Shown: positions 48,272 through 54,300 of the stretch, one piece after another | How positions within the stretch are numbered: position 1 is the first letter of the stretch | Layout: each line of letters starts with the position of its first letter | DNA from: Cucumis sativus | Lineage: Eukaryota > Streptophyta > Magnoliopsida > Cucurbitales > Cucurbitaceae | Assembly (NCBI RefSeq): GCF_000004075.3 | Contig: NC_026659.2 | Span: forward strand, 1,860,001 to 1,924,000 | Length of the DNA: 64,000 nucleotides | Reading direction: 5' to 3' | Notes under the pieces: generated by a model | Databases searched by the model: none | What the model was told of the DNA's origin: nothing | Seen by the model: the letters and a program-made list of their open reading frames with translations, nothing else | Program-made: the position numbers and the translations under genes

Positions 48272-50892
48272 ATGGCTGCCGATGACTCTGAACCTGACCA
48301 ACCACCCCCTCAAAACGACGTCGCTCCCATTTCTCTTCCTCACAGTACTATACTTTTACTTTCCCTCTCCTCTCCTGTCTTTTCTTTCTGTTTTTCCCGG
48401 AAAGTTTTTCTTTTTCTTGGGAAAATCTTTACTTTCCCGGAAATATAGTTTGCAAGTTAATGTACTTAGACTTCTTATTTAATTTTACGTTTTATAATAG
48501 AATTCATAATGTATGAATTTCCCATTGTTTATAAAAACGGACAAAAACATTCATCGTTTTACATATTCTTTACCTCCACTATTTTTCATTCACAAATAAT
48601 CAACTCTCTTTTTTTCTTCTTCTTGTGATTAAGTACATTTTATTTTATTTCAATTAAGTCATGTTTATATCACAAATTTTCTTTAATTCTTAATTTTATT
48701 TTATTTTCATACAAATTGACAACATTAAAAGTATAATATTTGATAATACCCTATAGATATTAATTTTTCTATATTTAAAAATATTATTATTTTTGTTTGT
48801 TTCCATGTGAAAGAAGCAAAATAATAAAGTTCATCTTTAAGTTTGAATTGTTTTTACATAATTTTCACAAATATACAAACCAATAATGTCTTTTTTACTT
48901 AAAAAGCATTATTCACAATTAAATGTTAACACAAAAAAAAATTGTTTAAAAACATTTCCCAAACAATGTTTCATCTGAAATTTGAATTATTGAATGAAAT
49001 TATTCAATTATTCAATTGCATCAAAATGTAAGAATTAATTATTAGAAAAAAGAAGAAGAAAAAAGCAGTTTTTGATTGTACTGTTAATACACTGCCATGA
49101 GTAATCAGAATCAGCTTTTTCTATATTTACAGCTTTATTGCCTTTTCTCTCTCCCTCAAATTTATTAGGCTTTAAATAATTATTTGAGCAAATTGTAAAA
49201 TAATAAACATAAATTGTAACTTTCTTATAAGTTTGAAGTTAAAAGTTTTTTGTTTTTGCAATTTACTCTTTTTTTATCTTTTGTCGAGACTTGTTTTATT
49301 TTAGTTTGAGTTTTATTTATTTATTTATTTATTTATTTATAAGCATGTAACTAATAATGAAGATTTTATTAAGATTTATTAAAATTGTATGATTTGAATT
49401 TAGATAATTAAAATTATAGGGATTTTTTTTTGGTTTTGTTTATGAAAGGTGTGATTGATGACATGATGCATCAATTTTCAAATTTCCTAAGAGAATGAAT
49501 TTGGAAAGAAAGTAATTTGAATTGATTTGTTTTCCCTTTATTTGTTGGGGACTTGTTTGGAAACAAACATGCAACAGTCATGAAAGCAATAATAATGGCA
49601 ATAACATTTAGAAAGAAATAAAGAAACAAACTTTATTTTACCATTTCGTTCTTACAAAATCACTTTGTTTTCTTTGGTTCATGTGATCTTTTCTTCTTAT
49701 TATTGGCTCATTTCTTCTCTGACAAAGACAAAATATAAAATGACAGAGATTTCAGATTCTTCTGAGAAAATTGATGCTGCAAAGGACAGAGGTAAGAGAG
49801 TAAAAAAAAACACCGTTCTCTTTTGATTTTCTTGTCAATCTAAACCTATAGAAGTGTATGGTAAAAGTAGAAAGGAAAACAAAGAAATTTTGATGAAATG
49901 AAGTTGAGGATACTGTTTCATGAGATTAGTTTTTCTCAGATATTGCATTGGCTCGGGTCGAATGGGAGAAGAAGATGGCATTGATAAAGGCATGGGAGGA
50001 GAGTGAAAAGATCAAAGCAGAGAACAAGTAAAATACAGAATTTTTCTCTATTGTTGAGTGTTTAGTTATTTATTTTTGTACCCTTGAATTTTTGTATTTG
50101 TTTCAAAAATACTCATGTACTTTTAAAAGTTAACGTTTTATCATTGGAGAAGAAGTTGTCTAGATTCTGAACGAAAGTGGCGTATGCTATGGTGTAGTAG
50201 GTGATGTAGAACGAAAATATGAACAACCACAGATCTAAGTTTTAGTTTTGAAAAATATGAAGAATTTATATTTCAATGGTAGTTTTAAAACGTTTATGAA
50301 AGTTGAGGGTATATTGAAGCTTTTGAAAGTAAAGAGTTAGGAAACAAAAGATTGAGTTCTTTTTAACATGTTTGAAATGTTTGGACAGGGCATACAAAAG
50401 GCTTTCTGCAGTTGAATCTTGGGAGAATACCAGAAAGGCTTCCATAGAAGCGCAACTGATGAAGATAGAGGTAAATTGGCTTTTGATCATGTATAGTTTA
50501 ATAATTCTCACTGATTATAGACTTAGATTTCTCGATCCACGTTTCAAAGCGTTTTGGTTTTTGTGAAATGACAGGAAAAAATGGAGAAGAAGAAAGCAGA
50601 GTATGCTGAGCAAATGAAGAACAAAATCGTTGGAATTCACAAGGAAGGTGAAGAGAAGAAGCAACCATTGAAGCAGAACGAAAAGAACATTGCCTCAAGG
50701 TTGAGGAAACGGCAGAAAAATATCGTACTTCAGGGTTCATACCAAAGACTCTACTCAAATGCTTCAGTGGTTGAAATGCTGAGGGGTTATAAAAACAGAT
50801 TCCTATCTCAGATTTGTACTTTGATTTTAGTCTTTGTTTGGTATTATATTGAATTAGGAGATGAACACTTTAGTGTTCTTTTTTATGTATAA
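48272..50892 (+). CDS. Remorin, with an apparent one-base frameshift before its C-terminal anchor
   Basis: Five exons: 48272-48344, 49747-49791, 49940-50027, 50389-50470 and 50575-50892. Splice sites are GT..AG and phases close to 201 residues as written. The conserved Remorin_C domain is plain: IALARVEWEKKMALIKAWEE, AYKRLSAVESWENTRKASIE, AQLMKIE, EKMEKKKAEYAEQMKNKI. Remorins are plasma-membrane nanodomain coiled-coil proteins. At about 50656-50666 the frame departs from the family. The open frame reads EEKKQPLKQNEKN and continues to 50892. The next frame carries the expected ending, IEAERKEHCLKVEETAEKYR and then a LLKCFSG terminus with a stop at 50772-50774. One base is therefore missing relative to the family. 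The anchor that would attach the protein to the membrane is lost in the written frame. The N-terminus (24 residues before intron 1) is short and Pro-rich. Confidence 0.88.
49311..49340. repeat. TTTA microsatellite in remorin intron 1
   Basis: About seven TTTA units in the long first intron (48345-49746) of the remorin gene. Confidence 0.8.
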
Positions 50893-51386: not shown

Positions 51387-54300
51387 CTAACCTTTAGATC
51401 GATTTCTAGCAGCTTTTCGCCTAGCGCAGCATCCGACTAAGTAGATTATCAGCTGTAAATACAAGTAAGAGATAAGAAATAAATGGTGGAAGATGAAACG
51501 AAAATGGAACCCTAGCTGAAAAGTGACTTACCAAGACAACAAATAGAATGACGTTGAAGATAGCAACCAATCGCCATTCAGTTTTCATGTACTGTGCGAC
51601 TCCGGCCCTGAATGATCAAACAATCAAATAATGATGAAAATTTTCACAGGGACTGCATCAGTGAATAGAGAATGGAAGAATAAGGTTATTAGTTATTTAC
51701 TTGCACGAATCACAATCGTAACACTTGACCGCCTTGGAATTCTTGTATACTTTGCAATCATGGTTTGAATTGACAGGATGAAAGCTCAAGTCATAGTATG
51801 ATGCATTAACAGCTGGATAACCACATCTGTTATTTGAATCACGAGGTCAAAAAGAACAAGAATTCATATTCACTTCTCAAATATCGTCGAAACAAAGTCG
51901 AGAGTTCACATGTCAATGTCATAAATCGCAAAAAGATTGTGGAGAATAAAAGATTATGGCATTATGGAAAAGACAAGGATTTGGTTTCTTCTTTTGTTTG
52001 TTTCAGTTTAAACATAGCAAAAAAACTATGAACTTGGAAGTTACACCTACTCGGATGGGGGTCTACAACAACCCGCTTCCATGGGCGTCAGCTTTGCCAA
52101 TTTGTACTGCTTGAGAGTCTGAAATTGTAAAAAAAAAATGGCTTCATGAGAAAGTGATGATAAAAATAATCAAATAGTCTGTTGTTCTAATGGACCGAGC
52201 TTAAAACAAGGACCTTGTATCTTTTTGAAAGGTTATTGCAATCCTCGGATTTGACTAGACAGCTTTTCAGACGCATCCAATTTTCAGTATTGTTAAGCTG
52301 TAACAGGAAAGCCAAAATCAGGATAATTGATAATCTCTCTCTTTCTCTCTTAGTAACAGGTAAAATTGTACTCACCTGTTTTAGAAACCACGTACTATAG
52401 TCTTGTAGTTGATACTCCTTATACCTCATCAAATGGGAAGAGAAGGGGAAAATATATCAGTCCATAGAAATGCCAGCTTATCAATGCACAAGCATCAAAA
52501 TCTGATAATCATGGGTTTAGGTTATTCTTATAAGCACAGATAGAAGATGAACCGTTTTCGCTCTTTCAGATTAAGTATCATCAAAACAAAATCACTTAAC
52601 AAGCACCTTTCTTTGAATGAATTAAATATATCCTCACCTCAAGCCAGCAACATCATGTCCCGATCCATTATTTGTAACAATAAACCTAAAATAAATTTGA
52701 ATAATTATGTTAGGTTCAAGAAAAGTACTACAATACAAATTACATACCAACTATGAAGCCAGCAAAGCCAGATTAAAAAGCATTCTCAAAGAGGAAGTGT
52801 ACGAGTCATGTATTGTTGCTAGCTAAAAGATGCCAACAACCATAGATGTCCACTTTGATACTTCCTTTTATATCTTGAAGGGGATCATGCGAAGATAATA
52901 AAAAGAAAAAGTAGTGTGGGCGAAAAATACATAGATAAGTGTACACAGATGAAAACAAATCCATGGTTAAGTATAATGTAATTATCATCTCATGGTGTTT
53001 TATTATAATTAGAGGATGTGATTCTGGCCTCTGCTCACATGGCTTAAAAGAAATCCAAGACATGTTCATACGAATCATGAATCCACTGCTTAAGGTATAA
53101 GAAGCTACTTTTGAAGACCTGTAACGAAAACTTTTCTGAACCACCTACTTTACCATAAAGCTACAAAATCAAATCACAAAGTCTAGACTACAACAGCATT
53201 CTTTGAATCATCTAGCATGAAAGATCCATCAACAACTAATGAGGAGTGAACTTAAAGGGGGGGGGGGGAAAGAAATTATTGTGGCCATCATGCTGGTTCC
53301 TACTTTTACTCATCTCAATTTTATATAGAAGTATATTGTCTTGCTTATATGCATTTTTGTTTGGTGTTTGGTGGATTTCTTAACCGTGCATTATCATAGA
53401 TTTGATAATTGAAATGCCTTAAGAAACATATACTCACGCCAACACTGTAAACACGAGAATCCCCACCAACGTAATGCACAACATGATCAGATACTATGTG
53501 CAGAAGGTCAAGGTCAAGCGAAATTTGGGAAGATTAACATCAACTGTTCAGATAAATTTTCATTTAAAAGGATACAATCCACAGCAATATCGAATTGTTC
53601 TTAAGGGCACCCAAGAAACCAACTATGGACCTGGATCAAAAACATTGATAACAACAATATTGGGTGAGTGAATCAGATTATACTCTATCAGATTATATTC
53701 CTAAAATGATAGAGAACTTACACCACAAAGATGAATCCACCAAGTCCCATGACAGGAAGAGTGAGAGATTTTCGACAACCGTCGTGGTGGGTGCCCATCC
53801 ATATCCCAAATATTATAACAAGAATAGCCAGAAACTGAAACATGTGGATACACAGTGATTCAAGAGCCCATTAATCTAGTTAAAGGCTTAGTAAAACTGA
53901 TGCTTATAGCCCTGCTCCAACAACTCATTCCCATGGTTATTTTAAGCCATCTTTAGGCCTATTTGTTTATAGAATCAACAACTTTTATTGAAGAAAAAAA
54001 GAAAAGAAAGAATACAAGCGCTTACAAAAAAGAAAAAAAAACATTAGAGAGAGAATTTCCGGCCAAGTAAGATGTTACCTACAAAATAATTTAATAACTT
54101 TGATACTAAAGCCCAAGGTTCTCATGGAATCTCATCAAGAACCAAACCTCACTAGAGTCCCTATCCACACCTTTGAACACTCTATAGTTACTCGCCCTCG
54201 AAACATCTTACAACAGAACACACACCCCATAGGCTGCAAGCAACGAACTTTCTTTCTTGAAGGCATATGAAGGAGGAAGTCCTCGATCATTGCACAAACA

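Follow-up and report, generated by a model that had tools for sequence, protein, structure and literature searches.

The forward strand of the window analysed here, a 64,000-nucleotide stretch of Cucumis sativus DNA (C5:1860001-1924000 of a 226.6-Mb, 88-contig genome), carries a remorin gene whose reading frame is displaced in exon 5. As assembled, the C-terminal membrane anchor (REM-CA) shares no frame with the Remorin_C domain. The anchor sequence is still present at the locus, at 50664-50774, in the neighbouring frame. We lean towards a residual consensus error in the assembled exon 5, one base short or two long, to which we give slightly better than even chances; this preference falls short of a finding.

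The gene runs from 48272 to 50774 on the + strand and is predicted to have five exons, with good splice borders and a frame that stays open to about 50661. These exon borders are our own prediction from the sequence, made on AG/GT borders and frame. Exon 1 (48272-48344) supplies the ATG start and a variable N-terminus in an open frame that ends at a GT donor. Exon 2 (49756-49791), exon 3 (49940-50027) and exon 4 (50389-50470) each lie between a CAG acceptor and a GT donor and keep the frame, and the Remorin_C domain begins in exon 3 (domain match from residue 47). Exon 5 opens at 50575 after a CAG acceptor, in a phase that agrees with the 279 nt of preceding coding exons. Its segment still in the upstream frame, 50575-50661, putatively the family's coiled-coil region, completes the upstream part of the gene. 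The start and the splice borders are intact, and no second lesion was seen in the gene.

As written, the product scores 75.1 bits against Remorin_C (PF03763), above the Pfam cut-off of 29.7 bits, and it scores 11.9-13.0 bits against Remorin_N, for which the cut-off is 23.2. Only some remorins have a Remorin_N domain. Remorin_C is common to the cucumber gene, the solved chain 9rqu (REM1.1) and the remorin C-terminal fragments 9f1e-9f1g. Unlike 9rqu, the cucumber gene as assembled has its last 36 residues in the neighbouring frame, and the product as written lacks the anchor and carries an unrelated extension of 76 residues instead. The gene at this locus is an ordinary plant remorin, and a new protein architecture has no support.

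In the frame of the gene, exon 5 encodes EKMEKKKAEYAEQMKNKIVGIHKEGEEKK as far as 50661. From 50664 the neighbouring frame reads TIEAERKEHCLKVEETAEKYRTSGFIPKTLLKCFSG and ends in a normal-looking C-terminus, LLKCFSG, before a stop at 50772-50774. The remorin codons thus switch frame between 50661 and 50664, within a displacement site that we place at 50655-50666. The frame as written continues out of frame from 50662 to a stop at 50890-50892, adding 76 residues with a hydrophobic stretch, presumably from the 3' UTR, for a product of 198 aa. Scored alone against the Remorin_C profile, the upstream part earns 68.4 bits over positions 2-77, and the 36-aa downstream piece earns 20.0 bits (E 5.9e-4), under the curated cut-off of 29.7 bits, over positions 80-106, so that it picks up just past the point where the upstream part ends. 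When the two halves are joined by a single X, the score rises to 100.9 bits over positions 2-106, compared to the 75.1 bits of the protein as written (positions 2-103), to which the out-of-frame tail contributes 6.7 bits. Because the downstream match follows directly on the upstream one and the bridged protein reaches this score, the displacement is beyond what chance would give. The X-bridged protein aligns with residues 10-121 of PDB chain 9rqu without a gap over 112 residues (E 7.7e-37); since one residue suffices as the bridge, the assembled sequence lacks one nucleotide or has two extra. An earlier note on this sequence had described the displaced frame, the expected remorin end with LLKCFSG and its stop at 50774 in the neighbouring frame, and an open frame as written that runs to 50892. 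All of this is borne out, and the start of divergence that it gave, 50656-50666, is correct to within a few bases.

Identity to 9rqu is 50/77 before the break and 20/34 after it, so the two halves of the gene are similarly remorin-like; the tail as written matches 9rqu at only 0-2 of 34 residues at the three offsets tried. The seven distinct remorin loci compared (L001-L005, L007 and L008) are all unbroken at the break position, in a set made up of the eight top-scoring remorin matches (L006 is an exact copy of L005), where choice by score is biased towards intact genes. L012, a lower-scoring remorin pseudogene fragment from another array, contains both a stop and its own change of frame in the break region. 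Differences between the displaced half and its three closest paralogues (L001, L002 and L004) number 12/8/21, 10/10/21 and 15/11/22 at codon positions 1/2/3. The third position thus takes about half of them (21/41, 21/41 and 22/48), where one third would be expected without constraint; the underlying alignments were chosen by protein similarity, which somewhat favours such a pattern. For the upstream half the corresponding counts are 5/3/13, 6/7/12 and 6/5/11. Against four distant paralogues, the displaced half shows a weak third-position excess (22/20/25, 20/16/27, 22/15/26 and 20/17/25). These comparisons suggest a break that is either recent or not genuine.

The locus is single-copy, its other DNA matches being 70-79% identical, and none of 17 matches in the same assembly is a near-identical second copy that might show the frame unbroken. 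One exact gapped DNA pattern spanning the break was scanned in the genome contigs and in viral contigs, with 0 matches in each. About 20 remorin-matching places are listed in the genome, some of them pseudogenes. Separately, 14 fragments resembling a remorin exon, with 76-79% identity to window positions of about 50553-50627, lie on C3 (12 of them), C7 (1) and C1 (1), and L012-L016 are among them. They occur at C3:18.06-18.26 Mb, where several are spaced about 15.5 kb apart, at C7:2146986 and at C1:17397788. Two of the fragments, L013 and L016, are 99.97% identical across 3,080 bases, and the whole set resembles an array of remorin pseudogenes that was amplified recently. The remorin loci L005 (C5:8113309) and L006 (C5:8866659) lie on one strand, separated by 753 kb, and do not differ at any of the 3,189 bases compared; either a segment was duplicated very recently or the assembly contains it twice.

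From the observed displacement, and from the remorin end found in the next frame, we infer a sequence error as the cause. An indel left in the consensus of the long-read assembly would shorten exon 5 by one base, or add two, and the predicted protein would then exit the remorin frame just ahead of its membrane-anchoring end. The real product would retain the C-terminal anchor, and the hydrophobic tail would not exist. We lean this way because the gene is otherwise spotless: both halves are remorin-like, no other lesion is present, the alignment is gapless once bridged and seven paralogues are unbroken. Against an error, the locus is single-copy, so that polishing with Illumina reads should have been effective, and the site lies outside any long homopolymer. 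The assembly of the window fits that of cucumber 9930, v3.0. As described in passages of its publication, that assembly holds 226.2 Mb in 7 chromosomes and 85 super-scaffolds, built from 46-fold PacBio coverage and polished with Illumina data (PMC6582320). The same passages state that Pilon corrected 156,931 small indels and that 30,546 homozygous small indels remained, a residual rate that the authors put at 0.00014 per base (PMC6582320). The remorin case resembles these residual errors in being a single small indel in a gene otherwise intact, of a kind that the reported rate makes expected (PMC6582320); it differs in lying at a single-copy site away from any long homopolymer, and in that its cause is one we infer. 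The main importance lies in annotation, for which the assembled sequence would yield a wrong remorin model with a false hydrophobic tail.

Frameshifts elsewhere in the genome were surveyed among UGT genes, at 64 loci out of 86 listed matches, with two matches on C24 left out as apparent duplicates. Each locus was subjected to translated comparison with 20 long UGT frames of the same set, and the non-self matches together covered 87,197 distinct bases. Four loci were flagged, representing three candidate frameshift sites: L022, L079, and L039 together with L066, which are the same gene with break points within about 15 bases. Over the 87,197 bases, three sites amount to roughly one quarter of the published rate of 0.00014 per base; the sites may be errors or natural pseudogenes, which the count does not separate. 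The break in L022 adjoins a GA repeat, and that in L079 falls at a run of seven A, in a gene that may be damaged elsewhere too. Like the remorin gene, the UGT genes L039 (C4, near 22923706) and L022 (C7, near 4095690) show an apparent single frame change in a frame otherwise well kept. Two UGT matches on a small contig, at C24:96385-100374, have the same scores and spacing as two at C4:13487873-13491862, a pattern that a duplicated scaffold would produce. Reading 42 HSP70 and 41 tubulin matches by eye brought up no clear frameshift, a weak null, since three overlapping pairs (C7:14015404/14016096, C5:1169089/1169271 and C7:4790496/4790899) were simply presumed to be introns. Ten ORFs of the window were also scanned with Pfam for local frameshifts; three scored above cut-off (two with Glyco_transf_90, one with LOR), too few for a rate.

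The earlier note had offered an assembly error or a natural allele. Both alternatives find support and carry similar prior weight, with the lean to error already given. A real, recent frameshift allele in the sequenced cucumber line is a serious possibility, to which we give rather less than even chances. It would fit a single-copy locus in a polished assembly, and a UGT frameshift rate lower than the published error rate. Coding indels are also common among cucumber lines: passages of the pan-genome report count 1,388,197 small indels against 9930, with likely base errors filtered, and state that about 1.5% of small indels alter start or stop codons, splice sites, amino acids or frames (PMC8813957), which by our own arithmetic comes to about 20,800. 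Such an allele must be recent if real, because the gene shows no decay elsewhere; the lack of any second lesion, and a displaced frame that is still open and remorin-like, stand against it. Its transcript would encode a remorin with most of Remorin_C and without the C-terminal anchor. Such an anchorless product would presumably stay in the cytosol, in whole or in part, and lack function, or else disturb other remorins by oligomerising with them, and loss of function or such interference is what we would expect of a true allele. In the passages available from one study, the C-terminal anchor is needed for plasma-membrane localisation, and in StREM1.3 the positive charges of the anchor play a part in how the protein is targeted to the membrane, is organised in nanodomains and restricts virus movement (PMC5536944). 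It is very unlikely that a true recent allele makes an anchorless, oligomerising, hydrophobic-tailed remorin, dominant-negative or mislocalised, that alters the plasmodesmal or immune behaviour of the line. Should the frameshift prove genuine, the locus would offer a natural loss-of-anchor allele, moderately useful to cucurbit remorin researchers.

Other readings take the assembled bases as correct and look for a function or a remedy in them. It is very improbable that the 198-aa product with its extension works as a remorin variant whose lipid anchor is replaced by a new hydrophobic tail. The extension does keep 76 codons open past the break and includes a 19-residue stretch of mean hydropathy 1.75. 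However, when untranslated regions were simulated 20,000 times with matching first-order composition, the extension was as long in 5.2% and as hydrophobic in 6.0%, and a mean hydropathy of 1.6 was attained by 34% of those that ran for 60 aa or more; moreover, the remorin end persists in the other frame. Neither the length nor the hydropathy of the extension is more than mildly unusual, no function need be invoked, and the tail is probably untranslated sequence read as protein. Of the gain of a hydrophobic tail proposed earlier, the open frame and the hydrophobic stretch stand, but a real gain is weakly supported, the tail being the out-of-frame close of the coding exon followed, for most of its length, by presumed 3' UTR past the remorin stop, where the frame is open by chance. 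Restoration of the frame in mature mRNA through an overlooked intron or an alternative splice site, named in the earlier note as what would speak against a frameshift, was followed up by enumeration and is highly improbable. As many as 29 GT/GC-AG removals within exon 5 would formally reopen the frame, but the three that cost the fewest conserved residues are of 8, 11 and 14 nt, and plant introns are far longer than that. Removals of 23-56 nt are costlier in residues or leave some codons out of frame, and every removal of at least 60 nt cuts out conserved core that is present in the compared paralogues. An alternative acceptor that moves the whole of exon 5 was rejected because the displaced frame has two earlier stops within the exon. 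Programmed ribosomal frameshifting, by which a full remorin would be made from the sequence as assembled, has in its favour only that the two frames abut, and we give it hardly any credence: the seven compared paralogues carry the region in a single frame, and we know of no case in the remorin family.

In the titles and passages available from the cucumber remorin literature, neither a sequence nor a model of this gene was found, and the word 'remorin' is absent from PMC3145757. A literature search returned no v4.0 telomere-to-telomere assembly of 9930, and no stated frameshift or assembly errors. Passages of a paper on powdery mildew name two cucumber remorins of chromosome 5, Csa5G606540 and Csa5G606730. 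To judge from their gene numbers, these probably lie elsewhere on the chromosome. Within the window, a gene at 51390-52460 on the - strand is convergent with the remorin gene; two of its pieces, scanned with Pfam, gave no match above cut-off, and we take the pieces to resemble a plant tetraspanin.
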